A DNA stretch of 64,000 nucleotides from Nitrosospira multiformis (lineage in GTDB: Bacteria > Pseudomonadota > Gammaproteobacteria > Burkholderiales > Nitrosomonadaceae): positions 2,728,001 through 2,792,000 of the forward strand of contig NZ_FNKY01000001.1 in the NCBI RefSeq assembly GCF_900103165.1, in the 5' to 3' direction. Below, one piece after another: positions 3,328 through 57,563 of this stretch. Position 1 is the stretch's first letter, and every line of letters begins with the position of its first letter. Both the position numbers and the translations under genes were made by a program. The notes under the pieces were generated by a model that ran no database searches, was not told the DNA's origin, and saw only the letters and a program-made list of their open reading frames with translations.

Positions 3328-3509
3328 GGGCCTGTTAACACTTATTTTGCACCCGCGACGGCGACGGATTTCATCCAGCACGAGGCATGAGCCGCGCGGC
3401 GGAGCAGGCCTCCGTAAGCGGCGAGTAACGAAGGGCTGGATGAAATCCGTCCAGTCCCTTCGGGTTGCTACACAAAAAACGCGGGTGCGAAATAAGTGTT
3501 AACAGGCCC
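3328..3509. mobile_element. MITE copy A (family 1), TA-flanked
   Basis: A 182-bp element without coding capacity. Its ends are near-perfect 30-bp terminal inverted repeats starting GGGCCTGTTAACACTTATTT, continuing to GCACCCGCG. TA stands immediately outside each end (3326-3327 and 3510-3511), which fits a TA target-site duplication. Inside is a second 16-bp inverted repeat, GACGGATTTCATCCAG (3363-3378) with CTGGATGAAATCCGTC (3436-3451), and a GC-rich centre (GCCGCGCGGCGGAGCAGG). Copies B (24499-24762) and C (51827-52007) share ends and interior. It lies about 100 bp past the 3' end of the L,D-transpeptidase gene. TA duplications are known for IS630/Tc1-mariner and some IS5-group elements; the parent transposase is not in this window. 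Confidence 0.88.
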
Positions 3510-12256: not shown

Positions 12257-13578
12257 CATCATTTTGGGTTGTAGCCGGCATTTTTATTGTCGGTGCTCTG
12301 CTGTTCGTACTTCCTACGTTGCTGAGAAAAAAAGATTATCAAGCTGGCGGGGGGCGCGACTCCACCAATATCAGTATCTATCGCGATCAGTTAGCCGATC
12401 TCGATAACGATTTACGCAGCGACATCCTGACACGTGAGCAATACGAGCAAAGCAAGCGGGAACTGCAGCAGCGAATGCTGGAAGACGTTCCCCAGGGAGG
12501 ATCCGTGACAACTGCTACATTAGTGGGCGGCGGCAACCGTAATGTTGCAACCATAGCATTGGTGGTGCTGGCGATACCCCTGCTGGCGGTCTCACTTTAT
12601 CTCTGGCTGGGCAATACGCGGGCGCTTACTCCGCAGCCCGCTGTCGAGCAGATGCCCATGCAGGGAATGACGGATGAAGGAGGTCATCAAAACTTTTCGG
12701 CGGTGCTGGATAACCTGACAGCGCGTCTCAAGGAGCAGCCGGATGATATGGAAGGCTGGGTCATGCTGGGAAGAACCTATGCAATGATGCAGCGCTTCCC
12801 TGAAGCGAAAAGCGCTTATGAGAAGGCGCTTGCCATGGTCCCGGATGATGCGGAACTATTAACCGATTATGCCGATATTGTCGCGATGACGAATAATGGC
12901 AGTCTGATGGGGCAACCTCAGGAACTGATCAATAAGGCATTGCGTCTCGATCCCAAGAATCCCAAGGCGCTGGCATTGGCGGGTACCGCCGAATTTGAGC
13001 AAAAAAGATTCAAGCAAGCGGCCGTATACTGGGAGCAATTACTGGTGCTCGTTCCGCCAGAGTCTGATTTGGCGCGATCTGTAAGCAATAGCATTGCCGA
13101 AGCGAAATCGCTGGCTTCAGGGAAAGGCAGCATCATGGCAAGAGCGCAGGATCAGGCGCCGGGCGGGCAGAATCCTCCTCCTGCCGGGAACAGGCCGGAG
13201 TCAGCCGCGGCTGCGGGGGCGGCCACAGCGGGTGGCGGCACACTTTCCGGTAACGTGACATTGAGTCCCGCCATGGCCGGCAAAGCGTCTCCCAATGACA
13301 GCCTGTATATTTTTGCTCGCGCCAAAGTGGGCCCGAGGGCGCCGCTGGCGACGCTGCGCCTGCAGGTCAAGGATTTACCAGCAACTTTCTCGCTGAACGA
13401 CTCGATGGCCAGATCCGGTGTACAGCTATCCACCTTTGCCGATGAAGTGGTGGTAGGCGCCAGAATCTCAAAATCCGGATCTCCCATGCCGCAAAGTGGT
13501 GATCTGCAAGGCCTCAGCCAACCCGCCAGGGTGGGCGACAAGGGAATTAATGTGGTAATCGATCAAACGTTACCTTAA
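12253..13578 (+). CDS. ccmI: Cytochrome c biogenesis protein CcmI (TPR)
   Basis: Apocytochrome c chaperone of system I. 441 aa: two N-terminal membrane segments (about 3-24 and 96-118) around a cytoplasmic loop with the leucine-zipper-like ISIYRDQLADLDNDL, then tetratricopeptide repeats (WVMLGRTYAMMQRFPEAKSAYEKAL and the LALAGTAEFEQKRFKQAAVYWEQLL region) and a C-terminal beta-rich domain (about 325-441) like that in long CcmI/CycH proteins. Last gene of the operon, ATGA overlap with ccmH. Its TAA stop touches a family-2 repeat. Confidence 0.92.
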   Translation: MTSFWVVAGIFIVGALLFVLPTLLRKKDYQAGGGRDSTNISIYRDQLADLDNDLRSDILTREQYEQSKRELQQRMLEDVPQGGSVTTATLVGGGNRNVATIALVVLAIPLLAVSLYLWLGNTRALTPQPAVEQMPMQGMTDEGGHQNFSAVLDNLTARLKEQPDDMEGWVMLGRTYAMMQRFPEAKSAYEKALAMVPDDAELLTDYADIVAMTNNGSLMGQPQELINKALRLDPKNPKALALAGTAEFEQKRFKQAAVYWEQLLVLVPPESDLARSVSNSIAEAKSLASGKGSIMARAQDQAPGGQNPPPAGNRPESAAAAGAATAGGGTLSGNVTLSPAMAGKASPNDSLYIFARAKVGPRAPLATLRLQVKDLPATFSLNDSMARSGVQLSTFADEVVVGARISKSGSPMPQSGDLQGLSQPARVGDKGINVVIDQTLP

Positions 13579-13752
13579 ACCCGGATAATCCATTAGCGGT
13601 TCTTCGAGCACGCGAGTGCTGATGGTCAGTTTGCGGCTATTTCTGTCGCTTGCCCGGCATCCATAGACCCGGCTATGAATTTCTCCCGACCGGCAACGCT
13701 GTTTTGCAACCCACTTCGCCATCATCTCGCATTCTACTAGATTATCTAGGTT
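13579..13752. repeat. Family-2 inverted-repeat element, copy 2a
   Basis: A 174-bp non-coding element that begins directly after the ccmI stop. Left end ACCCGGATAATCCATTAG; right end CTAGATTATCTAGGTT is a mutated inverted copy. Its reverse complement aligns along its whole length with the element at 48197-48352: shared blocks include GCGAGATGA, TTGCCGGT, GGGAGAA, GCCGGGCAA and GCCGCAAACTGACC. The two copies are therefore inverted with respect to each other. No coding capacity. Probably a small non-autonomous transposable element; it may have supplied the ccmI stop codon. Confidence 0.75.
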
Positions 13753-13877
13753 GAATAAGTCCCGAGTTTCTCAGCGGCGATCCACTGAGAAACTATCCAT
13801 ACGAAATCATCAGGCTGCATAAAGTGGAAGGCGCCAATAAGCAAAGCGCATTGCGCCGTATGCATGCCTATGAGTCG

Positions 13878-14174
13878 TTAAAAATGACGGGATAGCCGTC
13901 AGGCAAGGCGCGAAGAGGTACATAGTTTCCTATGCAACAACGAGCAACTCGGCGTGCCCGTGTCTAACGAACCCTTAAAAATGACGAGATAGCCAGCAGG
14001 CAAGGCGCGAAGAGGCGCATAGTTTTTCCTATGCAACGACAAGCAACTCGGCGTGCCCGTGTCTAACGAGCTCTTAAAAATGACGAGATAGCCGTCAGGC
14101 AAGGCACGAGGAGGCGCATAGTCTCCTATGCAACGACGAGCAACGCCGCATGGCGGCTATCTCGTCATTTTTAA
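13878..14174. repeat. Three tandem units of the nested-hairpin repeat (family 4)
   Basis: Units start at 13878, 13975 and 14074 (spacings 97 and 99 bp), each with TTAAAAATGACG(A/G)GATAGCC, then AGGCAAGGC(G/A)CGA(A/G)GAGG, an inner dyad CATAG-CTATG, and CAAC(A/G)AC(G/A)AGCAAC. The third unit is complete: its outer arms TTAAAAATGACGAGATAGCC (14074-14093) and GGCTATCTCGTCATTTTTAA (14155-14174) are a perfect 20-bp inverted repeat. In the first two units the right arm is replaced by CTCGGCGTGCCCGTGTCTAACGA. The block lies between convergent ccmI and ctaA, and the third hairpin with its T-run could act as a terminator for ctaA. Related copies: 18421-18519 and inside the MITE at 24529-24625. Confidence 0.85.
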
Positions 14175-15185
14175 TTAGCGAAGCTGGTGATTGACCCAGA
14201 GGGCGGCGGTAAACAGCAGCAGCGCACCTGCTTGGTGAGCTGCCGCCAGCGGTAGCGGAACAACCAGCAGCAAAGTGGCAATGCCGAGGCTTATCTGCAC
14301 TATCAGCATGATCAATAACAGATTGCAGGCAAGATGGGCCGAACCGGGAAGTGGTAGATTTTTCGATTTAAACCAGAAAATGGGAATCAGAGTCGCCAGC
14401 GTCCATGCGATCAGGCGATGATCGAATTGTACCGTCGCCATGTTATCGAAAAAATTGCGATACCATGGCTCCAGCATGAATATCTCCGGCGGAATGATGT
14501 GACCGTTCATCAACGGAAAGGTATTGTAAGCTCGTCCCGCATGGATGCCCGCGACGAATCCTCCTGACAAAACCATGATGAAGATGAGTGTGGTAAGCCC
14601 CAGGGAAAAGCGGTGTAAACCTCGCAATCTGATATTTCCATGCGATATATCAGCAGGAAGCAGTAGCTCTAACGCCACCCGGAACATTGCGGCATAAATA
14701 ATGAATGCAAGTCCTAAATGAGCGGTCAGCCGGTATTGACTGACATGCGGGTTATCCACCAGACCGCTTTTTACCATATACCAGCCCATCGCGCCCTGCA
14801 GACCACCCAGCACGAAAATTCCTGTCAGTTTCAGGCCCAAGGGCCGATCAATGCCTTTCCGGGCGAGAAAATATACGAATGGAATAAAGAAGGCCAGTCC
14901 GATGACGCGCCCAAGCAACCGGTGAAAATACTCCCACCAGAAAATGCCCTTGAATTCTTCCAGGCTCATGCCGAGATTAATTTTTTTGTACTGAGGTGTC
15001 TGATGATATTTCTCGAAAAGCACCTCCCAATCACTTTGGCTGAGTGGAGGAATCGTACCGACGATGGGTTGCCATTCAACAATGGAAAGTCCCGAATGGG
15101 TAAGCCGTGTCACACCGCCGACAACCACCATGGCAAACACCAGCGCGCAGCAAGTCAACAACCAGATGCCAATGGATTTTTGCAT
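14175..15185 (-). CDS. ctaA: Heme A synthase (CtaA/COX15)
   Basis: Oxidises the C8 methyl of heme O to a formyl group, giving heme A for aa3-type cytochrome oxidase; inner membrane. 336 aa, eight membrane segments, and the four heme-ligand histidines of the family: His88 (EYFHRLLGR), His156 (TAHLGLA), His256 (QFDHRLIAW) and His317 (AAAHQAG). The extended form with the acidic loop after helix I ([15 protein letters not shown]) is the proteobacterial COX15 type. Its stop codon abuts the family-4 hairpin array. Faces away from smpB with an ~80-bp gap on the same strand. Confidence 0.93.
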
Positions 15186-15269
15186 GATAAAATAAATAAT
15201 TCGCTATAAGCGGGAGTTGATGATTTATGGCAGACTTGAAACAAATCAGATCGCGGCTTTACGAGAGGA

Positions 15270-15713
15270 TTATTTCGCGCGCATCAGACGCTGTTTGTCA
15301 CGCATCCATTCTTTCTGTTTCTCGGATTCGCGCTTGTCATGCTGTTTCTTGCCTTTGGCCAACCCTATTTCGAGTTTGATTTTTCCGGCCTTATAGTGCA
15401 TATCCAGCGGCACCAGAGTGTAGCCAGCACGCTCCGCCTTGCCAATGAGCCGCTTGATTTCATCCGCATGCAGCAGCAACTTGCGAGTGCGGACCGGGTC
15501 CGGGTTGATATGGGTGGATGCCGTCGGTAAAGGACTGATATGGCAGCCGATGAGAAACAATTCGCTGTTGCGGATTATGACGTACGCTTCCTTTATCTGC
15601 ACCCGTCCCGCACGGATTGCTTTGACCTCCCAACCTTCAAAAACCACGCCGGTTTCATATTTTTCCTCGATAAAATAATCGTGAAAAGCTTTCTTATTCT
15701 GAACAATACTCAT
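15270..15713 (-). CDS. smpB: SsrA (tmRNA)-binding protein
   Basis: Required for tmRNA-mediated rescue of stalled ribosomes. 147 aa, with the OB-fold core ([33 protein letters not shown]) and the basic C-terminal tail that becomes helical in the A site ([19 protein letters not shown]). Divergent from ratA, an arrangement conserved in many proteobacteria. The ssrA gene itself is not in this window. Confidence 0.96.
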
Positions 15714-15929
15714 GTGGCAAGAAAAAGGGTGAGTTCCACGCGGGTTTCGTGTATTTTAACAGTTTCAATGCGGTCTCGGTGGATCATGGCAGTTTGTTTA
15801 TCCTGAATCCCGGGCCGGATTTCGCCGTAAAGGCGAAGGTCAAGTATGCAACCGATCTTTGTGGACATAGCGCCGAGATGAAAAATGAGTGTGAAATGAG
15901 CGGTCAAACGCCGAATTCAGGTCTATCCC

Positions 15930-16367
15930 ATGGCTGACATAGAAAAATCAGTTCTGGTCGGTTATTCCGCGAGCCAGATGTTCGCGCTGGTGGACGGGGT
16001 TGAAGCGTATCCCGATTTTCTACCGTGGTGCGGCGGTTCATCCGTGAGGCATCAGAGTGAAACCGTTACCCATGCGACGATCATGATCAATTATCACCAT
16101 ATCAAGCACAGCTTCACCACCGAGAATACCCGACACCCACCCGAATTGATTAACATAACACTGCTGGACGGACCCTTTCAAAACCTGGATGGCCACTGGC
16201 GTTTCATTCCCCTGTCGGAAGATGCCTGCAAGATAGAGTTTCGCCTACACTACACGTTCTCGCACATATTTCTGGAAAAGCTGGTAGGACCGGTATTCTT
16301 CATTATCGCCAACAGCTTTGTGGAAGCATTTATCGCACGGGCGGAAGTGGTTTATGGGCATTCATGA
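15930..16367 (+). CDS. ratA: RatA / COQ10-like START domain protein
   Basis: Member of the COQ10-START (SRPBCC) family. E. coli RatA has been described as an inhibitor of 70S ribosome association; yeast Coq10 binds ubiquinone. 145 aa: MADIEKSVLVGYSASQMFALVDGVEAYPDFLPWC is the family N-terminus, and the C-terminus has the amphipathic helix FFIIANSFVEAFIARAEVVYG. Divergent from smpB and overlapping rnfH by 14 nt, the classical smpB / ratA-rnfH arrangement. Whether it acts on respiration or translation cannot be read from sequence. Confidence 0.9.
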   Translation: MADIEKSVLVGYSASQMFALVDGVEAYPDFLPWCGGSSVRHQSETVTHATIMINYHHIKHSFTTENTRHPPELINITLLDGPFQNLDGHWRFIPLSEDACKIEFRLHYTFSHIFLEKLVGPVFFIIANSFVEAFIARAEVVYGHS

Positions 16368-16701
16368 ACGCACGATAGAGATTGAAGTCGTTTATGCGTT
16401 GCCGGACAATCAGTTTGTACGGCGGTTGAATCCGCCGGTTGGAATCACCGCGCGGCAGGCGGTGGAGCTTTCCGGCATCATCAACCTGTGTCCTGAAATT
16501 GATCTTTCACAAAACAAGCTGGGCGTATTTGGCAAATTGGTCAAACCCGATACAATTCTGCGTGATTGCGATCGTGTGGAAATCTACCGGCCATTGGCTG
16601 TCGATCCCGGAGAGGCGCGCAGGAAACGTAAGGAAGATTTCAAGGCAACGAAGAAAAATAGAGATACCGGCGTAGACGCACCCAGGAACGTCCCCCTGTG
16701 A
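16354..16701 (+). CDS. rnfH: RnfH family ubiquitin-like protein
   Basis: Small beta-grasp protein of the RnfH/UPF0125 family (also called RatB, PasI). About 115 aa from ATG 16354: IEIEVVYALPDNQFVRRL, a central SGIINLCPEIDLSQNKLGVFGK and the terminal signature RVEIYRPLAVDPGEARRKR. The frame stays open 12 codons further upstream, but ATG 16354, overlapping the ratA end, gives the family N-terminus. Function is unknown; it is almost always encoded beside ratA. Confidence 0.88.
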   Translation: MGIHERTIEIEVVYALPDNQFVRRLNPPVGITARQAVELSGIINLCPEIDLSQNKLGVFGKLVKPDTILRDCDRVEIYRPLAVDPGEARRKRKEDFKATKKNRDTGVDAPRNVPL

Positions 16702-16929
16702 ATGGCGGATAGACAGAGACAATGCAAACCCTCCGATTCCAGCGCGTTATCCTGTCTCATGGCTTGCCACAATCCTGAATCCAGTAGTTGACCATTCATT
16801 CTCCAGCTCAGCGCTATGATCCGCAAAAATCTTCCTGTTCTTCGACTTCACCACAATGGTGAGTTTCCTGCAGGAGGAATTCGATCACGAGCCATCAAGA
16901 TCAGGGTCCCCGCAGCCTCCGTGTTTCGC

Positions 16930-16935
16930 TATAAT
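16930..16935 (+). promoter_or_regulatory. -10-like box upstream of guaB
   Basis: CGCTATAATGCCG with a perfect TATAAT, 25 bp before the guaB ATG; the same 13-mer precedes ccmA. A clear -35 at the usual spacing is lacking. GAAGGA at 16946-16951 is the likely ribosome-binding site. Confidence 0.45.
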
Positions 16936-16959
16936 GCCGCTTTGTGAAGGATCAATATC

Positions 16960-18420
16960 ATGCGATTGGTTGAAAAAGCTCTGACTTTTGATGATGTTTT
17001 GCTGCTTCCCGCCCACTCCGGGGTTTTGCCGCGCAATGTTAATTTAACCACCCGGCTCACCCGCGCAATTTCCCTCAACATTCCACTGGTTTCCGCCGCC
17101 ATGGATACGGTAACCGACTCGCGGCTTGCCATTGCCCTCGCGCAGGAAGGTGGCATCGGCATCATCCACAAGAATATGCCTGCGGAAGATCAGGCAGCCC
17201 ATGTAGCCAAAGTCAAACGCTTCGAAAGCGGTGTGGTGAAGGAACCGATCACCATTCCCCCGGACATGACCGTCCGCGAAGTGCTCAATCTCATCCACCG
17301 GTACAAGATATCCGGTTTGCCGGTGGTGGAAGGCTCGAAAGTCGTGGGTATCGTCACCAACCGGGATCTGCGCTTCGAAACCAATCTGGATCAACCCATC
17401 AAGAACATCATGACGCTGAAAGAGCGGCTGGTGACAGTCAAAGAAGGGACGACTCGTGAAGAAGCAATGGCGTTGCTGCATAAACACCGGCTGGAGAGAG
17501 TACTGGTGGTAAATGGCGATTTCGAGTTGTGCGGATTAATTACCGTGAAGGACATTATCAAAACTTCGGAACATCCCAGTGCGTGCAAGGATGATCTGGG
17601 CCGTTTACGCGTGGGGGCTGCGGTTGGAGTCGGCGAAGGCAGCGACGAACGCGCGGAAGCGTTGGCTGAAGCAGGCGTGGATGTGATCGTGGTGGATACG
17701 GCTCACGGTCATTCCCAGAGCGTACTTGAGCGGGTACAGTGGGTCAAGAAGCGCTTTCCTCAAATTCAGGTTATCGGCGGCAATATTGCCACTGCTGCTG
17801 CGGCCAAGGCGCTGGTCGATCACGGAGCCGACGGCGTAAAAGTTGGAATAGGTCCCGGCTCGATTTGTACCACGCGCATTGTCGCCGGTGTGGGCGTACC
17901 GCAAATCACCGCGATCAAGAACGTATCGGACGCATTGAACAACACCGGCGTGCCGCTGATTGCCGATGGAGGCATCCGCTATTCCGGCGATATCGCTAAG
18001 GCCATCGCCGCCGGCGCCAGTTCCGTAATGCTGGGTGGATTGTTTGCCGGCACCGAAGAGTCTCCCGGAGAAATTGAACTCTTCCAGGGGCGATCTTATA
18101 AAACCTATCGCGGTATGGGCTCGCTTTCCGCCATGCAGCAAGGTTCCAGTGACCGCTATTTCCAGGAAGCCGGACAAGACACTGAGAAACTGGTGCCCGA
18201 AGGCGTGGAAGGCCGTGTACCTTTCAAGGGCAGCGTAATCGCCGTGATCCATCAGCTCATAGGCGGTATACGCTCGGGCATGGGTTATCTCGGCTGTGGA
18301 ACCATTGACGAAATGCACGCCAAAGCCGAGTTCATTGAAATCACCTCCGCCGGTATCCGCGAATCTCATGTTCATAACGTCCAGATCACCAAGGAGGCGC
18401 CAAATTATCACGTGGAATAG
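16960..18420 (+). CDS. guaB: IMP dehydrogenase
   Basis: NAD-dependent oxidation of IMP to XMP, first committed step of GMP synthesis. 486 aa TIM-barrel with an inserted pair of CBS domains (about 95-205: [20 protein letters not shown] and [19 protein letters not shown]). The catalytic Cys lies near residue 303 in [15 protein letters not shown], and the mobile flap [12 protein letters not shown] is present. Followed by guaA after 157 bp; this gap holds a family-4 hairpin. Confidence 0.97.
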
Positions 18421-18519
18421 TTAAAAAGCCGCCATGCCGCGTTGCTGGGTCGTTGATCGCATAGGAATCGCTACGCGCGTCCTTCGCCTTGCCTGACGCC
18501 AATTGAGTCATTTTTAACG
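18421..18519. repeat. Family-4 nested-hairpin repeat between guaB and guaA
   Basis: Read on the minus strand: TTAAAAATGACTC, then CGTCAGGCAAGGCGAAG, the inner CGTAG...CTATGCG dyad, CAACGCGGCATGGCGGC and TTTTTAA. The core matches the array at 13878-14174 but in the opposite orientation, and the outer arms are imperfect (GCCGCC against GGCG, A/T runs at both ends). It begins immediately after the guaB stop and could attenuate or terminate guaB transcripts. Confidence 0.75.
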
Positions 18520-18577
18520 TTTTCCTCGTGGTTTTGCCTGTTTGAAGTTACGATTTAAGGATTTCTGACGCACCCCG

Positions 18578-20140
18578 ATGCATCAAAAAATACTCATCCT
18601 CGACTTTGGTTCCCAATATACCCAGTTGATCGCCCGCCGCGTCCGGGAAACCAACGTTTATTGCGAAGTTCATCCCTGCGACGTCAGCTCGCAATTCATC
18701 CATGACTTTGCAGCGCAAGGCATTATTCTTTCCGGTGGTCCGAATTCCGTTGCGGAGGATGAAACACCGCGCGCCCCGCAAGCTGTCTTCGACTTGGGTA
18801 TCCCGGTACTGGGAATTTGCTACGGCATGCAGGTGATGGCTGCGCAGCTGGGCGGCGCGGTTGAAACTTCAAAAGTACGGGAATTTGGCTATGCTGAGGT
18901 ACGTGCGGAAAATCGAACCGCACTGATGCGTGATATTCACGATCGTACCGATGCGGAAGGCAAACCGGTTCTGGATGTGTGGATGAGTCATGGCGACAAG
19001 GTAACGGCGCTTCCTCCCGGTTTCAAGGTGATGATCAGCAATGCCGCCACGCCGAATGCCGCCATAGCGGATGAGGCACGCAAGTTCTATGGCATGCAAT
19101 TTCATCCCGAGGTCACCCACACCCTGCAAGGCAAGGCCATCATCGAGCGGTTTGTACATGAAATTTGCGGGGCCGGTTACGACTGGAATATGCCCGATTT
19201 CATGGAAGAAGCGATCGGCAGGATTCGCTCGGAAGTGGGCACGGATGAAGTGATTCTGGGTCTATCCGGCGGTGTGGATTCATCGGTCGCGGCGGCGCTT
19301 ATTCATCGCGCAATCGGAGAACAGCTTACCTGCGTATTTGTGGACAATGGTTTGCTGCGATTAAACGAGGCGAAGCAGGTAATGGACACCTTTAGCAGGA
19401 ACCTGGGTGTCAAAGTCATTCACGTCGACGCCGGCAAAGAATTTCTCGGTCACTTGCAAGGCGTTGCCGATCCCGAACAAAAACGTCGTATTATCGGCCG
19501 GGAGTTTGTCGAAGTATTTCAGCGCGAAGCCGCCAGGATCGCCAACGCCCGCTGGCTTGCCCAGGGAACGATCTACCCGGACGTGATTGAATCCGCTGGT
19601 GGTAAGACAAAAAAAGCTCATACCATCAAATCCCATCATAACGTCGGCGGCCTGCCCGATACATTGCATTTGAAGTTGCTGGAACCCCTGCGTGAACTGT
19701 TCAAGGATGAAGTACGTGAACTTGGCCTGACGCTGGGACTCCCGCACGATATGGTATACCGTCACCCTTTTCCGGGTCCTGGCCTGGGCGTTCGCATTCT
19801 TGGCGAGGTCAAGTACGAATATGCCGAGTTGCTGCGGCGTGCCGACGCGATTTTTATCGAAGAATTACGTGCTTCGGGCTGGTATGAAAAAGCCTCGCAA
19901 GCCTTTGCCGTCTTCCTGCCGGTAAAATCAGTCGGGGTGATGGGCGATGGACGCACCTATGATTACGTGGTGGCATTAAGAGCGGTCAAAACAGAAGACT
20001 TTATGACGGCCCACTGGGTGGAGCTCCCCTATACCCTGCTGGCCAGGATTTCTAATCGTATTGTCAACGAGGTTCGCGGCATCAATCGCGTCGTATACGA
20101 TATCTCCGGCAAACCACCTGCGACGATTGAATGGGAATAA
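18578..20140 (+). CDS. guaA: GMP synthase (glutamine-hydrolysing)
   Basis: Converts XMP to GMP. 520 aa: class I glutaminase domain with nucleophile Cys in GICYGMQ (about residue 82) and the HPE triad part in [13 protein letters not shown] pyrophosphatase domain with PP-loop GLSGGVDSS (about 227); C-terminal dimerisation domain ending [18 protein letters not shown], the family terminus. Completes the guanylate branch started by guaB. Confidence 0.97.
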
Positions 20141-20225
20141 ATTTGCATCATTCACTGTTTCTCGGCAAGCTTATCGATAAAAATATTAGGCCCATGGTTT
20201 AACCTTACGTAAACCGGTTCTATCA

Positions 20226-20861
20226 ATGAAGATAATTGCTACATCTGTCACTTTTCTGCCTCTCCTGCTTCTCGGCGAACCAGTGCTGGCGGAAGGAGGA
20301 AAGCAGTCAGAGAAGTTAAATACGTCAACCGTGAATTCAGCCGCGCAGATTGTCCAGCCTCACAATTCTGACATTAGGGTTAAAGTTGAGAATGATGGTG
20401 AACAAATCATTGTGAAGGCAACTTTTACTGTTCCGGCTGCGCCTCAGCAAGTCTGGGCGGTGCTGACCGACTTCGATAACATATCCAACTTTATTTCCAG
20501 CATCCAGTCCAGCAAAGTGGTCGGAAGATCGGGCGATGATATACATGTCTCCCAGCACGCGATAGAAAAATATGCCTTTCTAACGATTTCGCTTGAATCA
20601 GTACGAAAAATTAATTTGACCCCTTTCAAGAAAATCCATGAACGCATGATTAGCGGCAGCATGCGCAAAATGGAAGAAACGACACAACTATTGCCAGAGG
20701 GAAATCACACGCGTATTGTTTATCATGCGGAGATTATTCCTGATGTCTGGATTCTGCGGTTTATAGGACCCCACTTCATCGAGAACGAAGCGCGAAAGCA
20801 ATTCCAGGAAATATCCAACGAAATAATCAGAAGAAAACAACTGGCAGTCACCACTGGATAG
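20226..20861 (+). CDS. Secreted SRPBCC (START-like) protein
   Basis: 211 aa with a Sec signal peptide (MKIIATSVTFLPLLLLGEPVLA, likely cut after ALA-type site near 22) and a SRPBCC/polyketide-cyclase-like domain (about 55-205; FTVPAAPQQVWAVLTDFDN is the typical entry strand and helix). Such domains bind hydrophobic ligands, but the ligand is unknown. Periplasmic location is predicted. Stands alone 85 bp after guaA with a weak ribosome-binding site. Confidence 0.75.
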   Translation: MKIIATSVTFLPLLLLGEPVLAEGGKQSEKLNTSTVNSAAQIVQPHNSDIRVKVENDGEQIIVKATFTVPAAPQQVWAVLTDFDNISNFISSIQSSKVVGRSGDDIHVSQHAIEKYAFLTISLESVRKINLTPFKKIHERMISGSMRKMEETTQLLPEGNHTRIVYHAEIIPDVWILRFIGPHFIENEARKQFQEISNEIIRRKQLAVTTG

Positions 20862-21065
20862 TACTCCAGTAAGCAAAGTCGCTCAGATCACGCCAAAACT
20901 CTCCTGCATAAAGCCACAACCAAGAATCTGCCGACGCGCACCAACTCCCTTATGCGTCAGCGTCACCAGATTGATAATGTTGCGATAGGAAGTTGTTTTC
21001 CTCTCAATTCTTTTCTCACCCCGGAAATGCGGAGCACGCCAGAGAGAGCGGTGATCTCTGATCCT

Positions 21066-21215
21066 TCACAGGGGTTTGCGTCCACTAATGATTCTAAGTA
21101 ACACCACCACGATGGCGATCACCAACAGAATATGGATGAAACCACCCATGGTGTAAGAACTCACCAACCCAAGCAGCCATAAAATGATCAGAACGACAGC
21201 GATGGTATAGAGCAT
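21066..21215 (-). CDS. 49-aa lmo0937-type membrane protein
   Basis: Short gene: 49 codons from ATG 21215 with AAAGGAG 7 nt upstream. The product has two hydrophobic segments, MLYTIAVVLIILWLLGLVSS and FIHILLVIAIVVVLLRII, joined by YTMGG, and ends SGRKPL. This pattern is that of the lmo0937/DUF5670 family of tiny membrane proteins, widespread near stress genes and of unknown function. Last gene of a minus-strand run of small stress-type proteins. Confidence 0.85.
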   Translation of the reverse strand: MLYTIAVVLIILWLLGLVSSYTMGGFIHILLVIAIVVVLLRIISGRKPL

Positions 21216-21320
21216 GATATTCTCCTTTCATGTTTAACCTGTTTATCAACGTTCCTGACACTCATCCGGATTGTAGGACATACCGCCATTCAAGAATTAC
21301 CTGCGGATAGGGTCCCGGTT

Positions 21321-21725
21321 CTATTTTTCTCGCTCGGCATCGGCCTTGGCAGCGGCTTCCGCAGCTTTTGCATCTTTAAGGCAAATCCCTTTTGCGTCGC
21401 CGGCCCGATCGTCACACCGTTCTTTAGCGGTCGCGTAATCCGCCTCCGCCCTGGCGATACGGGCTTTATAGCGATTTTCCCTGGAAGGTTCATACTGAGC
21501 TTCAAGATCGGCTTCCGCGACCTCTTCTCCACCTTTCGCTTCAACTCGGCAAATATCCTTCGCATTCGCGGCGAGGGAATCACAATGCGCCTTTTGGGCC
21601 TTGTATTCGCGTTCTATGCGCTCCTTTTCCGCTTTGTACGCATCCTTGGACATGTGCTGCCCCGCCATCGTGCCGAAACTGAATACCAAGCCCGAGATTA
21701 TCGCGATGACTTTGAATTTATCCAT
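21321..21725 (-). CDS. Periplasmic Cys-repeat protein, hypothetical
   Basis: 134 aa with an N-terminal signal helix (MDKFKVIAIISGLVFSFGTMA) and a charged, predicted helical mature part. It contains an internal duplication: YKAQKAHCDSLAANAKDIC...AEADLEAQY, then YATAKERCDDRAGDAKGIC...AAKADAE. Each half has a pair of Cys spaced by ten residues (C-x10-C), suggesting helical hairpins with a disulfide each. Similar proteins accompany CsbD and BON proteins in betaproteobacteria. Function not known. AAGGA lies 6 nt before the ATG. Confidence 0.72.
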   Translation of the reverse strand: MDKFKVIAIISGLVFSFGTMAGQHMSKDAYKAEKERIEREYKAQKAHCDSLAANAKDICRVEAKGGEEVAEADLEAQYEPSRENRYKARIARAEADYATAKERCDDRAGDAKGICLKDAKAAEAAAKADAEREK

Positions 21726-21757
21726 GATTTCCTTAACTTATAATTCTAATACCATTA

Positions 21758-21788
21758 TGCGGCATGTCGCATTTCGCCACATGCCGCA
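21758..21788. repeat. Dyad TGCGGCATGT / ACATGCCGCA
   Basis: Perfect 10-bp inverted repeat with an 11-bp spacer (CGCATTTCGCC), between the csbD-like stop and the next gene's ribosome-binding site. The same half-site words (GCGGCA, TGTCGC, CCACATG) recur upstream of the PEP-CTERM genes at 27221-27290. Could be an operator or a transcript hairpin. Confidence 0.6.
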
Positions 21789-21793
21789 CCACT

Positions 21794-22012
21794 TTATTTA
21801 GGAGGATAGATATCCTTCTGGTTTTTCTCCCAGGTGGAAATTTGCTTTTCCGCCTCCTCCTTTGTAACCCCATACGATTCCTGAATCTTCCCCGCGAGCT
21901 GATCCCGTTTGCCTGCAATCACATCGAGATGATCGTCGGTTAGCTTGCCCCACTGCTCCTTGACTTTACCCTTGAATTGTTTCCAGTTGCCTTCTACTTG
22001 ATCCCAGTTCAT
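21794..22012 (-). CDS. CsbD family stress protein
   Basis: 72 aa, MNWDQVEGNWKQFKGKVKEQWGKLTDDHLDVIAGKRDQL, the unmistakable CsbD pattern, with a longer tail (ISTWEKNQKDIYPPK) common in proteobacterial members. CsbD proteins are general-stress-induced, structurally little defined, of unknown biochemical role. AAAGGAG is 6 nt before the ATG. Confidence 0.92.
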   Translation of the reverse strand: MNWDQVEGNWKQFKGKVKEQWGKLTDDHLDVIAGKRDQLAGKIQESYGVTKEEAEKQISTWEKNQKDIYPPK

Positions 22013-22089
22013 TTTTAACTCCTTTCATATGGATAATAGGACATGCAATTTCATTACGGTTTCTTTGATGCTCATTTCCAGCTACTTAT

Positions 22090-22677
22090 TTACTTCTTGA
22101 TGCTCAGTTCATTAATCACATTCTTCACGCCCTCGACTCCACGCGCGATCGCCGTTGCCTGGTCGATCTGAGTCTGATTGTCCACAAAACCGCTAAGCTG
22201 GACCTCACCGTCGCGCGTCACTGCGGCAATATCAAAGCTCTTAATACTCTCATCGGCAAGCAGCGCGGCTTTTACCTTGGCAGTAATGACGGCATCATCT
22301 ATTTTGTCGCCTATCGTCGTCGTGGTAATCTTTAAGTTCATCTTATTGTCCACGTTTTTGACACCCTCGACTCCACGGGCGACCGTAATGGCCCGATCGA
22401 TCTGAGCCTGGTTATCCACAAAACCACTAAGTTGAACCTCGCCTTTGCGTGTCTCGACCTTGATATCAAAACTCTTGACATCCTCATTGGCCAGTAGCGC
22501 CGATTTCACCTTGGTGGTGATGGTGCTGTCATCGATTTCCGTCCCTACTGTGGTTTTAGCCTCGGGCTTAGGCGCCTCAGGCGGCGCCGCTTTCTCCCCG
22601 CTTTTTCCACATCCGGCAATAGATAGCGCGCCGATGAGTGTGATGGTCAGAACGAGTAATCTATTTTTGGTATTCAT
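22090..22677 (-). CDS. Lipoprotein with two BON domains (OsmY-like)
   Basis: 195 aa from ATG 22677 (a TTG five codons upstream is less likely). Signal peptide with lipobox ALSIAGC, a Pro/Lys/Glu linker, then two near-identical BON domains (about 45-115 and 120-195): ALLANEDVKSFDIKV...GEVQLSGFVDN and ALLADESIKSFDIAA...GEVQLSGFVDN, each ending ARGVEGVKNV. BON domains bind phospholipid in OsmY/DolP-like proteins; a periplasmic envelope-stress role is inferred. First gene of the small stress-protein run. The family-3 repeat starts 50 bp upstream. Confidence 0.88.
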   Translation of the reverse strand: MNTKNRLLVLTITLIGALSIAGCGKSGEKAAPPEAPKPEAKTTVGTEIDDSTITTKVKSALLANEDVKSFDIKVETRKGEVQLSGFVDNQAQIDRAITVARGVEGVKNVDNKMNLKITTTTIGDKIDDAVITAKVKAALLADESIKSFDIAAVTRDGEVQLSGFVDNQTQIDQATAIARGVEGVKNVINELSIKK

Positions 22678-22726
22678 GCTTTTTTTCTCCAAAGTTGATT
22701 GAAATTGGAACTGTTAAAAGTACTCT

Positions 22727-22887
22727 CAGCCTGCCGGACTTGAGAAATCGAAGCGAGAAAGCGCCCGGATGGAAACAGATTCTGATGATGCTGCGGGCTG
22801 ATAGTTAATTCTATTAGCCAAAAAAGCGACGAAATACAAACCGGCCAGTTACTTTTACAGCCGATCTCATTCAAGTCCGGCAGGCTG
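22727..22887. repeat. Family-3 inverted-repeat element, copy 3a (complete)
   Basis: 161 bp, non-coding, with perfect 17-bp terminal inverted repeats CAGCCTGCCGGACTTGA and TCAAGTCCGGCAGGCTG. Interior landmarks shared with copies 3b-3d: AATCGAAGCGA near the left end, TTCTATTAGCCAAAAAAGC in the middle, CCGGCCAG and ACAGCCGAT(C/T)(T/C)C near the right end. Upstream of the BON lipoprotein gene, where it may replace or carry promoter sequence. Confidence 0.85.
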
Positions 22888-23352
22888 CCACAGGCATACT
22901 CTGCTCCACGGGTGCAATCATCCCTTTTTGACTCTAACTGATCAGTGCGGTGACACACACAATCAGGAAAATACTAAAAATGGAGCTTAACCAGGCAAAT
23001 AGAACAACTGCCAGAATTGCACACAAAACGATCGACGGGAGTGGTGCGACTTGAGAGTCGAGACTTGGGGCTCGAGATGGATTGGGGATTAATTCGGTTG
23101 ATAAATCACATACAAAGTGAAGACGCCGGTCTGAAGCACTGATGCCTCTTCCCGGCGTGTGATGTGTGACTCTGCGAAAGCAAGACTTAGCTGCTGGAAT
23201 ATCAGGCTGGATTTTTCACGGGGCAGGTAGCCCGGAAGGCCTAAAGGGGAATGGAAATGAATTCCGGATCGCCCAGCTATCAGCGCCCGTCACCATGCCT
23301 TGCGCCGAATTCATTATTCGCTCGACCCGGTTCCATGATGGCACGCCGCCCA
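22888..23352. other. Intergenic stretch with one doubtful small membrane ORF
   Basis: On the minus strand, 22934-23026 could encode about 30 residues (CAILAVVLFAWLSSIFSIFLIV...), a hydrophobic helix, but the only start in reach is TTG with no ribosome-binding site. Nothing else recognised. Confidence 0.3.
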
Positions 23353-23360
23353 AGCTCGCC

Positions 23361-24353
23361 TTATTTGGCTTGTATCTGATCAAAAACGCCGCCATGGGCA
23401 AAATGCCTGCTTTCCGCCAGATTCCAACCGCCAAAAACCTCGTCAACGGTAAATAGATCCATTGATGGGAGTTGCGTCGCGTATTTTGCGGCTATCCTTT
23501 CATCGCGTGGGCGATAGTGGTGTTTACCCGCGATATCCTGAGCTTTGGCGGTATAGAGATAATCGATATACGCTCGAGCCACGTCGCGCTCACCATCGGT
23601 GGCCGCATTGTCCACAATACTGACTGTGGGTTCGGCCATGATCGACATGGACGGAGCGACTACCTCAAACTTGTCGCCACCATGGTCCCTGACAACCCGA
23701 TGAGCTTCGTTTTCCCACACCAGCAGCACGTCGCCGATGCCACGCTCAACAAAGTTTGTCATCGCGTTACGGGTCCCGGCGTCCCCTGCTTTGACATTGG
23801 CAAACAATTTCCTGACAAATTCAAGTGCGCTTGCTTCATTGCCACCGGGTTGCTGGAGCGCATAACCCCATGCCGCCAGATAATTCCAGCGAGCGTCGCT
23901 TGAAGTTTTTGGATTGGGGGTAATCACTTCGACCCCCTGCTGTACGAGATCGTCCCAATCTTTTAGTTGCTTGGGGTTGCCTTTACGCACCAGGAACACA
24001 ATGGTCGAAGTATAGGGCGAGCTTTGCGGCGAAGATCCCTGCCAATCGGGCAAAGTGAATCGGGTATTCTTTTTGAGTGCCTCAGCATCATAAGATAAGG
24101 CAAGTGTAACGACACCAAGCCCATTCATCACGGCACGTACGGGCACGCCGGATCCACCGTGTGCCTGTTTGACCGTAACAGCGACACCGGACCGCGCTTT
24201 CCAGTGCCTGACAAATGCCTCGTTGAAATCCTCGTACATTTCCCACGCGGGATCAGCCTTGCTGCTATAGGAATGCAGGGCGGCGGCGGCAACTCCTAAA
24301 CTAAGCAGAATTACGAGGAGCGCAAAAATAAAATGGGAGCGATATAAACTCAT
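23361..24353 (-). CDS. Sulfate-type ABC transporter substrate-binding protein, orphan
   Basis: 330 aa; periplasmic binding protein of the Sbp/CysP family: signal anchor (FIFALLVILLSLGVAAAA), DPAWEMYEDFNEAFVRHWK, GSGVPVRAVMNGLGVVTLALSYD (oxyanion-binding SG/GG loop), ITPNPKTSSDARWNYLAAWGYAL and the C-terminal MDLFTVDEVFGGW. ATG 24353 is preferred because GGAGG stands 8 nt before it; ATG 24359 would be only 2 nt away. No cysTWA permease or ATPase genes are nearby, so its transport partners lie elsewhere. Ligand could be sulfate, thiosulfate or another oxyanion. Confidence 0.88.
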   Translation of the reverse strand: MSLYRSHFIFALLVILLSLGVAAAALHSYSSKADPAWEMYEDFNEAFVRHWKARSGVAVTVKQAHGGSGVPVRAVMNGLGVVTLALSYDAEALKKNTRFTLPDWQGSSPQSSPYTSTIVFLVRKGNPKQLKDWDDLVQQGVEVITPNPKTSSDARWNYLAAWGYALQQPGGNEASALEFVRKLFANVKAGDAGTRNAMTNFVERGIGDVLLVWENEAHRVVRDHGGDKFEVVAPSMSIMAEPTVSIVDNAATDGERDVARAYIDYLYTAKAQDIAGKHHYRPRDERIAAKYATQLPSMDLFTVDEVFGGWNLAESRHFAHGGVFDQIQAK

Positions 24354-24498
24354 TTTCATTTCCTCCAGAGTAATTACCAGAAAGAAAATCTAGCATTTGT
24401 TTATTTCACAGGTGTTGCATAAAGATGAAGAAATTGAGTAATCGGTCGCCCATCGGTCACCCTTTACTCGGCTGCCTACAGTCCCCCAATCCAATCTA

Positions 24499-24762
24499 GG
24501 GCCTGTTAACACTTATTTCGCACCCGCGTTGCTACACAAAAAACGCGGAGGCAAGGCGCGAAGCTTGGCCATAGTAGGCCTATGGCCAAGCTTCGTAACG
24601 CGGCATCCGCGTTTTTTGTGCGCAACCCGAAGGGACGGGACGGATTTCATCCAGCCCTTCGTTACTCGCCGCTTACGGAGGCCTGCTCCGCCGCGCGGCT
24701 CATGCCTCGTGCTGGATGAAATCCGTCGCCGTCGCGGGTGCAAAATAAGTGTTAACAGGCCC
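24499..24762. mobile_element. MITE copy B (family 1) carrying a nested hairpin, TA-flanked
   Basis: 264 bp, inverted relative to copies A and C, with the same GGGCCTGTTAACACTTATTT ends and TA on each side (24497-24498, 24763-24764). It is 82 bp longer because a family-4 hairpin core sits near its left end. The hairpin is flanked by an inverted duplicate of MITE sequence: TTGCTACACAAAAAACGCGG (24529-24548) against CCGCGTTTTTTGTGCGCAA (24607-24625). Lies between the divergent binding-protein and histidine-kinase genes, 34 bp before the latter's start, so it replaces much of their shared promoter region. Confidence 0.88.
24549..24606. repeat. Family-4 hairpin core inside MITE copy B
   Basis: AGGCAAGGCGCGAAG and AACGCGGCAT bracket a perfect 16-bp inner stem, CGAAGCTTGGCCATAG (24559-24574) with CTATGGCCAAGCTTCG (24580-24595), loop of 5. 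The bracketing words match the units at 13878-14174 and 18421-18519, whereas the outer arms match only the host MITE. Confidence 0.8.
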
Positions 24763-24796
24763 TAGGAGTGCACCGGAAAATTGAATTTGGAAATAA

Positions 24797-26935
24797 ATGG
24801 CAATCCACACGCCTCTACGTATAGAATTTTGCGTTGATGAAACCAGCGAATGGAGCAGAATCCCGGTGAACATAAAAAGCTTTACCAAATTTTCCAATGT
24901 TGCCCTCGCCTTGCTGCTTATTGGAACCGGGGCACTGGTATTTCATTCGCTGAGCATTCAACAAGAAATTTATAGTAACGAGCGGCATCGATTCCGTGCG
25001 GTTCTGCTTGCTGATGAGCTCCTTCAAAGCTCGGAAGACCTCACTAATATGGCGCGCTATTACGTGGTAACCGGGGACCCCAAATATGAGCAATTTTTTT
25101 TCCAGATCCTCGATATCCGCGAGGGTAGGCGGCCACGCCCTCTGAATTATTCCGCTCCTTATTCGCACCTGCTGATTGCGGGCGAAATATCTGTTATGGA
25201 GGAAGGTGACAAGATTCCATTGCTTGAGCTCATGCGCCGGGAGGGTTTCAGCAACGAGGAATTCACCCTGTTGCGGGAATCCAAGGAGAGATCGGACCAA
25301 CTGGCTCTTCTCGAAAAAGAGGCATTCGCGGCCATGAAAGGCCTGTATGACGATGGACAGGGTAATTTTACGGTACACCGTGCGCCGGATCGGGAATTTG
25401 CCATGAATTTGTTATTTGGCGAACGCTATGTCGACAAAAAAGCCGCCATTATGGCGCCGATCCAGAAATTCCTGGATTTATTCAATGAACGCATGCAGAC
25501 TGAATCGAACGTTGGCTCCGCCCGGCTCGAGCGCCAGATCATGTTTGAAATGGTGCTCATTTTCATTACGCTGCTTGCTACGGCGGTGATCATTTTTTAT
25601 ACACGTCTCGGGATATTGCAGCCGTTGGCTGAGCTCGGCCGTCAGGTGGCCGGGATCACGCGCGGCATTCGCCCCAGCCGTCATGGCGGAAGTGTAAGCA
25701 ATGAAGTGGCGGCCCTTGGCGAGGCATTGGTTCTGGCGGACGCGGAGAAGAGACAACTGCTTGAGAATGAACGGTTAGCCAGGAATGAAGCCGAGCGGGC
25801 CAGTCAACTGAAGGACGAATTTCTGGCAACTCTCTCTCATGAACTTAGAACCCCGCTCAACGCGATTCTGGGATGGTCCCAACTCATTTTGAGCGGAAAC
25901 ATGAAAAAAGAGGATATTCATCGGGGCTTGGAAACCATAGAACGGAACGCTCGCGCACAAAACAAGCTCATTGAGGATCTCCTCGAAATGAGTAGTATTA
26001 TTTCTGGAAAGGTCAGACTCGACATGCAGCAATTGGACGCCGCCGCGCTGGTCGAGGCGGCGGTCGAGTCGGTGAATCCGACGGTACAGGCCAAGGGAAT
26101 CATTCTGCAAAAAAACATCGACCGGCACATCGGCCCAGTCTCGGGTGATTCCAACCGGCTTCAGCAGATCTTCTGGAACCTCCTTTCCAATGCAATAAAA
26201 TTTACCCCTAAGGGTGGAAAAATTGAAGTTGTGGTTGAACAGATAGGTTCTTTTCTCGAAGTCAGGATCAACGATTCAGGTCTGGGCATTTCACCCGATT
26301 TTATGCCCTATGTTTTTGACCGCTTCCGGCAAGCCGATGCTTCACTGACCCGGCAGTATGGCGGTCTCGGTCTGGGTCTTGCCATCGTTAAGCAACTGGT
26401 GGAGCTTCATGGTGGAACGGTTCGAGCGGAAAGCGCCGGAATGGGTAAAGGAGCATCATTTATCACAAACCTGCCGCTGGCAACCACTAGTGATAAGCGG
26501 AAAAACGAGCCATCGCCGCTGACACGGGATGCCTTCGAAGGCGATCATTCCGTGCTCTCTGGAGTAAAAGTGCTGGTGATTGACGATGAACTGGACGCAC
26601 GTGAGCTTATCAAGGGAATACTCACTCACTATCAGGCCAGTGTGACCACCGCCGCGACCGCAATACAAGGACTCATGCTTTTACAGACCGGCAAACCCGA
26701 TGTGATTATTAGCGACATTGGCATGCCGGAGAAAAATGGATATCAGTTCATTCGAGACGTGAGAAATCTTTCCGGTGAAAACGGTGGCGAGACACCGGCT
26801 ATCGCGCTTACGGCATTCGCCCGTCCGGAAGACAAAATCAGCGCGATAAATGCCGGTTATCAAGGCCACCTCACCAAACCGGTGGAGCCGCGGGAACTCG
26901 TCGCCGCAATAATCGGCCTGGTTGAACGGCAATGA
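24797..26935 (+). CDS. Hybrid sensor histidine kinase with C-terminal receiver
   Basis: 712 aa membrane kinase. N-terminal transmembrane helix (about 36-55), a ~200-residue extracytoplasmic sensor region of unknown fold, second helix (about 250-272), then the HisKA dimerisation domain with phosphorylated His in [11 protein letters not shown] (near 350). The HATPase domain has [18 protein letters not shown] and [10 protein letters not shown], and the receiver domain (about 590-712) has VIDDELDA, phospho-Asp in [12 protein letters not shown] (near 638), LTAFA and the Lys in TKPVEP. The receiver has no output domain, so the signal must pass to another phosphotransfer protein or the receiver is self-regulatory. 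No partner regulator is adjacent; the PEP-CTERM block lies downstream. Confidence 0.9.
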
Positions 26936-51826: not shown

Positions 51827-52007
51827 GGGCCTGTTAACACTTATTTTGCACTCGCGACGGCGACGGATTTCATCCAGTACGAGGCATGAGCCGCGCGGCG
51901 GAGCAGGCCTCCGTAAGCGGCGAGTGACGAAAGGCTGGATGAAATCCGTCCCGTCCCTTCGGGTTGCGCACAAAAAACGCGGGTGCAAAATAAGTGTTAA
52001 CAGGCCC
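51827..52007. mobile_element. MITE copy C (family 1), TA-flanked
   Basis: 181 bp, same orientation and interior as copy A, with GGGCCTGTTAACACTTATTT ends and TA at 51825-51826 and 52008-52009. Inner inverted repeat GACGGATTTCATCCAG / CTGGATGAAATCCGTC is conserved. It separates the convergent 3' ends of the SmbP-like gene and ligD. Confidence 0.88.
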
Positions 52008-57185: not shown

Positions 57186-57563
57186 GAAAAATGGGCCCTT
57201 GTTGGTAACCGTGAAGTCATAAGTGAAAGGTGGATTAATGCTGGAAAAATAGCTGGTTTATTCCTTCCAGCCTAAATCCGGGAGTTGGACCGGGTGGAGT
57301 ATGCGGGTTCTTTCGGTGCCGGGAGCAAGGCGCAACGACGCGGAATGATCATTCCATTCCAAGGGATTGGAGCACGGCCATGTGCCGTAAGAACCGAGTA
57401 GTTCGTCCGCTAGCAAGCTCACCCTAACGATAAAAGTAAAGTGGTGCACAAAATCTCTATGGATCATAACACTAATTTAAAAAATGAACGGTCAGCTACC
57501 AGATTTAGGTTTAATCCAAATATTTTTGATGTGACCCCGCAGCAAGGCCAGGGGATCTCCCAA
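57186..57563. other. Intergenic stretch between FkbM and GT2 genes
   Basis: Contains one 7-bp dyad, GCTGGAA (57240-57246) with TTCCAGC (57265-57271). No gene recognised. Confidence 0.4.

Follow-up and report, generated by a model that had tools for sequence, protein, structure and literature searches.

The hairpin core described here probably marks a Correia-type superfamily of MITEs which extends across phyla, is of one structural kind, and whose members share one strand-specific hairpin and, with it, some partner. Each element would be composed of two transposon ends and one or two hairpins of ~100 nt. The hairpin tip would be a conserved motif in two parts (5' GGCAAGGCRCRA and 3' GCAACGCNGC), closed via two tandem G.A mismatches, or via Watson-Crick pairs in variants, with a variable inner stem above it; the outer arms and the terminal repeats could change freely while remaining complementary, thus each family would have its own set. 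The computed support covers the anatomy of the elements, the flanking duplications, the covariation, the strand asymmetry, the distance between core and element end, and the match to the 105-bp Correia element.

The window (the whole 64-kb stretch of DNA analysed) contains the 15-nt core word at 13901, 13998, 14097 (with 2 mismatches) and 24549. Since this word alone is not rare (4 occurrences with up to 3 mismatches in the window vs 2.9 expected), a covariance model of the whole core hairpin, R1, was constructed from 16 diverse copies (alignment A1), the window copies at 14074 and 24529 being among these training sequences. With the threshold at E<=0.00035, R1 recognized eight hairpin places of the window, namely 3356-3457, 13895-13961, 13996-14056, 14075-14173, 18412-18516, 24527-24628, 24633-24734 and 57298-57402. 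Core and arms together were significant, with E values of 1.2e-23 and 3.8e-15 for the two best places, both of which are training sequences. The initial annotation had listed five copies of the core: all of them were recovered by R1 and their core is real, but only two are full palindromes, since those at 13878 and 13975 are without the right arm and the one at 18421 has partly lost one arm. Three places had been missed, 3356-3457, 57298-57402 and, on the minus strand, 24633-24734. Complementary arms were located at 14074-14100/14148-14174 and 24535-24552/24603-24620; the full palindromes, 14074-14174 and the MITE hairpin, had folding z values of -8.5 to -10.8 on both strands, and the values were +0.4 to -1.8 for the copies at 13876 and 18419, the only incomplete ones that were folded.

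The MITE at the finding site (family M; 24499-24762, plus strand, 264 bp) is the long, twin-hairpin form, with terminal inverted repeats at 24496-24528 and 24733-24765 that are 97% complementary, and with TA on both sides. Its first hairpin, H1 (24527-24628, plus strand; R1 70.1 bits, E 3.8e-15; core word at 24549-24563), is of the beta type, in which Watson-Crick GAAG/CTTC replaces the tandem G.A. The second one, H2 (24633-24734, minus strand; R1 41.5 bits, E 5.5e-8), has the same core architecture with arms GACGGATTTCATCCAGC and is inverted relative to H1. In twin-hairpin elements GCAACCCGAAGGG connects the two inverted hairpins, and its other strand, CCCTTCGGG, is a possible UUCG tetraloop hairpin; this joint occurs in the window at 24499-24762 and also in other families (L152, L156, L159, L188). 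Two short M copies lie on the minus strand: one of 182 bp (3328-3509), in which the H1 core is absent and H2 is retained (3356-3457, E 2.8e-7), and one of 181 bp (51827-52007), in which the H1 core is likewise absent.

The T hairpin forms a tandem array on the plus strand. According to arm pairing and R1, copies 1 (13878-13972) and 2 (13975-14071) consist of the left arm and the core without the right arm, and copy 3 (14074-14174; R1 104.1 bits) is a complete hairpin of the alpha type, having the double tandem G.A and arms 93% complementary over 27 nt. The number of units in this array (window 13878-14174; L095, L096) varies between sister species, with three here, eight matches in G014 (one of them partial) and six in G021; the units are ~94-101 bp apart and one unit in each array retains the right arm. 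A decayed T hairpin (18412-18519, minus strand; R1 29.6 bits), with one arm partly missing, is situated between guaB-like and guaA-like genes, named by eye, as in the following. This guaB-guaA copy is present in G014, which keeps both arms, in G002 and in G021, it is absent from G017, and it is old. Near to it, at 18562-18578 on the plus strand, there is a possible remnant of an M2 transposon end (match with up to 4 mismatches, by eye against L032). An M3 MITE of 239 bp (57271-57509, plus strand; ends at 57271 and 57493-57509, hairpin at 57298-57402) was identified by R1 and by its end match. Single M3-like transposon ends were also seen at 15905, 16774 and 62295, where no full element was recognized.

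In the genome as a whole (G000) at least 53 R1 hairpins were found when 150 of 1004 candidates were scored. The core is present in at least four hairpin types with distinct arms (T, M-H1, M-H2 and M3), within three MITE families that have different ends: M, the family of the finding site, M2, the host of T, and M3. The ends of M are CTAGGGCCTGTTAACACTTATTTCGCACCCGCG (33 bp, inverted, 97% complementary), and its copies are 264-266, 209, 181-182 or 176 bp long. A complete M2 was recognized by eye at L032 (G000:C1:3028148). M3 has the ends CCTAAATCCGGYAGTTG and a single hairpin adjoining one end; its end pattern occurs at 213 places of the genome and the reversed pattern at none (0), so that M3 may number about a hundred copies. 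As MITEs, M and M3 possess terminal inverted repeats, and target site duplications accompany both of them: identical 5-bp flanks were read by hand in 10 of 15 distinct M3 copies, and TA stands on both sides of M in 21/21 copies with exact ends, the latter being the weaker evidence since TA is palindromic and indistinguishable from the end of the repeat. The proposal that the elements are unlike a simple REP was right: a simple REP could be rejected on account of its wrong size and the presence of transposon ends. Their supposed difference from MITEs that form target site duplications was not upheld by these flanks. Inspection by eye revealed no pairs of M ends 0.4-3 kb apart in G000 and no recognizable transposase among the open reading frames of five G000 stretches; no transposase with matching ends was found from the end spacing of M and, among the matches listed, of M3.

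The initial annotation regarded the outer arms as specific for each locus and as copies of the local target. At the loci examined the hairpin arms are family-specific, not locus-specific. Among the 17 exact matches of the 15-nt core word in the genome, 15 lie in M and two in T; the arm of the M matches is the same apart from at most two changes, one match (L007) being cut off behind the core, and the T places, seven in number, resemble one another in having TTAAAAATG-like arms. The left arm TTGCTACACAAAAAACGCGG was found in all 16 distinct long M sequences examined, exactly in 11 and with one change in five. A fixed core within palindromes that have different outer arms was borne out, both by the families of this genome and by the pattern loci across species. 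The arms were expected to be complementary within and unrelated between loci, and this holds for the loci as a group across species; within each family of this genome the arms are alike.

It was also confirmed that MITE copies A and C carry the arm sequence only once, as probable deletion derivatives. In long M copies GCACCCGCG stands to the left of H1 and GCATCCGCG to the right, and the junction of the short M carries the T of the right-hand repeat in 4/7 distinct short copies, a T that the left repeat has in 0/16 long copies. Comparison of these repeats indicates that the coreless short copies probably arose from long ones by deletion between GCACCCGCG and GCATCCGCG; the 209-bp form fits another possible slip, between CGCGG repeats. 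The comparison with empty sites was informative in part: in the two sister genomes of greatest similarity, which are of sister species, the syntenic region is without the MITE found here at 24499, but their flanks are too diverged for the exact insertion junction to be read.

The idea that the core inserts in a hairpin-mediated or template-switching event and forms its arms by copying the local target in inverted orientation was therefore rejected and has hardly any probability left. It agrees with the single arm of copies A and C in the window and with arms that are complementary within families and different between them, but it is contradicted by the identity of the arm (up to one change) at 16 distinct long M loci, by the flanking duplications, by the two sisters whose syntenic site is without the MITE, and by the chimaeric deletion junction in 4/7 short copies. 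The initial annotation had itself named one conserved arm sequence as evidence against target copying, and one conserved arm is what was found within families, thus the idea is already refuted there by its own criterion.

The core is not confined to this genome. With R1 at E<=1e-4 it was detected in 145/399 genomes of the order (70/158 genera) and in 88/398 genomes of the phylum (46/213 genera), where at most 10 candidates were scored per genome in both scans; in 44 of the 145 order genomes the best E is above 1e-8, and such weak matches could include plain palindromes. An exact pattern search that fixed only the two core words and left the arms free recovered the motif GGCAAGGCGCGA ... GCAACGCNGC in genomes labelled Proteobacteria, Acidobacteria, Verrucomicrobia, Myxococcales and others. 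At least 119 stretches of named genomes have this core-word pattern, with the labels Pseudomonas, Variovorax, Massilia, Salinisphaera, Lysobacter, Acidobacteria, Desulfobacterales, Myxococcales, Nitrospinota, Verrucomicrobia, Planctomycetota and others; many of the genomes are metagenome bins and the labels are as deposited. In 80 of these at least 119 stretches R1 found 93 hairpins at E<=0.01. Both core words were recovered within two mismatches in 39/41, 88/93 and 31/37 rows of three model alignments vs 13/2050 shuffled rows; A3 was chosen for the core words, so only A2 and A4, which contain the best loci of each scan and not the weak ones, are independent in this respect. Open frames of at least 100 aa cover 39 of the 120 pattern hits, and these are perhaps spurious frames in GC-rich DNA.

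The anatomy of the elements is also regular outside the window. Among 85 loci for which 450 bp of sequence was available on each side, 53 have inverted repeats around the hairpin that lie above the 99% point of the null, and the same set with looser flank limits yielded 55 elements with recognizable ends. These fall into three sizes, 157-190 bp (25 elements), 233-249 bp (17) and 266-287 bp (13), centred at about 160, 238 and 270 bp. In the 55 elements the distance from the nearer end to the start of the core is 48-65 nt (median 52), and the end sequences differ. Elements of the smallest class are end-to-end palindromes whose tip is the core, and 51-59 nt lie on both sides of it in 21/25; the middle class resembles M3, and the large one (class 3) has the twin-hairpin form seen in the MITE of the window, with inverted hairpins each adjoining an end. 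The Pseudomonas loci L181, L192, L229 and L240 have this twin-hairpin form.

Across species and as a group, the loci have arms that are complementary to each other and bear no relation to those of other loci. After 11 edge hits were dropped from the 120 pattern hits, the arms of the remaining 109 had 15.1 of 24 Watson-Crick pairs with their own partner vs 10.2 +- 1.65 with arms of other loci; the 99% point of the cross-locus null was exceeded in 46/109 loci and not in 63/109, and left arms of different loci were identical at 9.8 of 24 positions. In alignment A2 (41 rows) 88.1% of the cells were paired and 34/35 pairs had double changes. The covariation of A2 was 0.804 vs 0.190 when shuffled and at most 0.150 when slid, A2 being fitted to the model, which favours it; in A1, which was aligned without the model, it was 0.573 vs 0.204 shuffled. 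In the T-type core CGAGGAG stands against CGACGAG, giving the steps C-G, G.A, A.G, G-C, G.A, A.G and G-C. Between the two G.A positions a Watson-Crick pair stands in 102/109 distinct hits vs 39.1 +- 4.5 (maximum 53) in 2000 shuffles, and these pairs are split into G-C 49, C-G 36, A-T 11 and T-A 6. The full double tandem G.A is present in only 56/109 pattern hits. RNA often contains tandem sheared G.A pairs, and the G.A tandems of the core are presumably sheared as well. In some groups a second asymmetry recurs in the outer stem, recognized by eye as GGATTTTT against AAAAGACC and as GAGGCGCCC against GGGATG (L186, L219, L245, L251, L253, L267, L296; L187, L196, L202, L228, L260), which suggests another conserved internal loop.

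One particular strand seems to be selected to fold. The opposite strand would show C.T mismatches where the core has G.A, and in the arms of 54 loci (those with at least 14 of 22 pairs, aligned by Watson-Crick pairing only) there were 100 G.T mismatches vs 27 A.C, and 94 G.A vs 18 T.C; G.T was commoner in 34 of these loci and A.C in six. In the model alignments the strand asymmetry was 312 to 84. The excess of G.T and G.A over A.C and T.C is interpreted to mean that selection acts on how one strand folds. Folding energy was uninformative as a test of the strand, the conserved strand being not consistently favoured (T -56.1 vs -51.0, M -62.5 vs -65.3 kcal/mol, conserved vs other strand).

The orientation of the elements was even in both tests. 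Relative to the flanking genes 46 intergenic loci were divided 14/11/11/10, thus read-through transcription is not the explanation and a cis-acting RNA was rejected. Relative to replication, with origin and terminus guessed from GC skew, 37 of 90 plus-strand M3-end rows among the matches listed were co-oriented, 43 anti-oriented and 10 ambiguous (P 0.58), and replication-strand targeting was rejected on this count of 37 vs 43. Since there is no bias relative to genes or replication, the relevant single strand is not marked out by anything in vivo.

Among known repeats the Correia element, which has words similar to the core, was searched with R1. The 105-bp Correia element of Neisseria gonorrhoeae (L440) was matched end to end with an E value of 4.6e-12 for 305 bases; the score was 48.5 bits, vs 16.2 bits on the opposite strand. 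A hairpin beside it, presumably a pair of Neisseria uptake sequences, had 19.2 bits, which illustrates that weak matches in the genome scans could be plain palindromes. The 155-bp Correia was not recovered by R1, because its 50-bp internal piece hides the element. Two 2.17-Mb gonococcal records of chromosome size, NZ_CP119140.1 and NZ_CP119142.1, are filed in the plasmid collection. Correia (CREE/NEMIS) resembles M in its TA ends and long terminal inverted repeats, and, like members of the present superfamily, it has the core on the same strand, in its case in one hairpin. It differs from M in its ends (TATAGTGGATTAA in Correia, GGGCCTGTTAACAC in M), its arms and its size (105 or about 155 bp in Correia, 264-266 or 181-182 bp in M), so M is not a Correia element by size and ends, and the twin-hairpin form was not seen in the two Correia copies examined. 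The relevant passages of PMC2229807 and PMC10969869 report an IHF site in the 50-bp insert of Correia, RNase III processing and promoters; they treat Correia, ERIC and others as separate MITEs, most of them with TA ends and stable stem-loops, and make no mention of a core common to them.

ERIC (IRU, RU-1) of enterobacteria is listed as a small palindromic element with TA ends in Table 1 of PMC2229807. By eye, two tandem G.A steps can be placed next to its inner stem too (L439, pgk-fbaA, E. coli), and R1 gave 4.4 bits (E 2) at the right place, which does not demonstrate a relation. REP and REPIN sequences, which possibly act as folded single strands, are like the present elements dispersed intergenic palindromes. 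The elements described here differ from REPs, which have 20-40 bp according to PMC3733652, by their length of 157-287 bp, the ~100-nt hairpin, the terminal repeats and the flanking duplications. R178 and R200 of Pseudomonas fluorescens, compared by the sizes and counts in the relevant passages of PMC2718517, are intergenic repeats of the same bacterial group. A known RNA family was rejected as well: cmscan with Rfam at E<=10 on window positions 13500-25000 gave two chance-level matches, neither of them on the hairpins.

As to their mobility, the elements may have been moved as double-stranded DNA by insertion-sequence transposases acting in trans, as the ends, the duplications and the copy number suggest, and the different ends together with TA vs 5-bp duplications point to different transposases for different families. 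The tip of the hairpin would be recognized in one particular single strand. Tentatively, and at somewhat less than even probability, we favour as the recognized strand an intermediate of single-stranded DNA that is folded and to which a conserved protein would bind: single-stranded DNA could be exposed in replication or transposition and would then fold into the hairpin. This is preferred to an RNA of the element, which is the next candidate with a chance of roughly one in three. In that case the element would make or lie in an RNA whose folded core is recognized, for example by RNase III, or protects it, for example from that enzyme. G.U-type wobbles exceeding A.C would suit such an RNA, as would the tandem sheared G.A pairs so common in RNA. 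The RNase III processing and promoters reported for Correia, in the relevant passages of PMC10969869 and PMC2229807, are also in line with it. Against it stand the unbiased orientation to genes in 46 intergenic loci, by which read-through transcripts would contain either strand, and the lack of any Rfam match on the hairpins at E 10 in window positions 13500-25000.

The position of the core, ~52 nt from the element end in all size classes, and the inverted hairpins of class 3, each adjoining an end, would also be expected if the hairpin acted only in cis, as subterminal DNA of parent insertion sequences kept for their transposase, the twin form being both ends joined after loss of the gene. 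This is unlikely, since ends and flanking duplications differ widely among families that share the core, no inverted hairpin pair around a gene-sized gap was seen by eye in 80 loci (up to 8 kb), and a strand asymmetry is unexpected for a double-stranded binding site. Less likely still is the birth of new families by a strand switch at the core that copies a resident insertion-sequence end into an inverted duplicate, the arms then coming from transposon ends and not from targets. The smallest elements, single end-to-end palindromes with the core at the tip and 51-59 nt on both sides in 21/25, and the joint change of arms and ends between families could be understood in this way, but the arms of T and M-like families change gradually by paired substitutions, which ordinary compensation explains, and a donor end was not found. 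It is similarly doubtful, at about the probability of the cis-acting hairpin, that the motif is a real selfish unit in the fullest sense, with one single-stranded DNA fold with two stacked tandem G.A steps defining a trans-phylum, non-autonomous superfamily that includes Correia, swaps arms and ends between unrelated transposases, is bound by a conserved host protein and maybe makes new families by copying a transposon end.

Among the matches listed from open-access main texts, in which absence is weak evidence, nothing on MITEs of Nitrosospira, Nitrosomonas or Betaproteobacteria, on MITEs with a conserved core, on repeat families or on Correia outside Neisseria describes the present elements, and the papers matching sequence words are unrelated, judged from their listing. 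Bacterial MITE families are usually catalogued genus by genus and assumed to be the leftovers of a founding insertion sequence. That families with unrelated ends have a strand-specific hairpin in common, and have it at a fixed position, implies a common function that is independent of the transposase, over a span from Betaproteobacteria to genomes labelled Acidobacteria and Verrucomicrobia. The presence of the motif, with differing arms and ends, in many unrelated bacteria, the gonococcal Correia included, points to a common working part. The much-studied and still unexplained Correia repeat thereby gains relatives in harmless bacteria, and a precise motif is now available for fishing out its partner.
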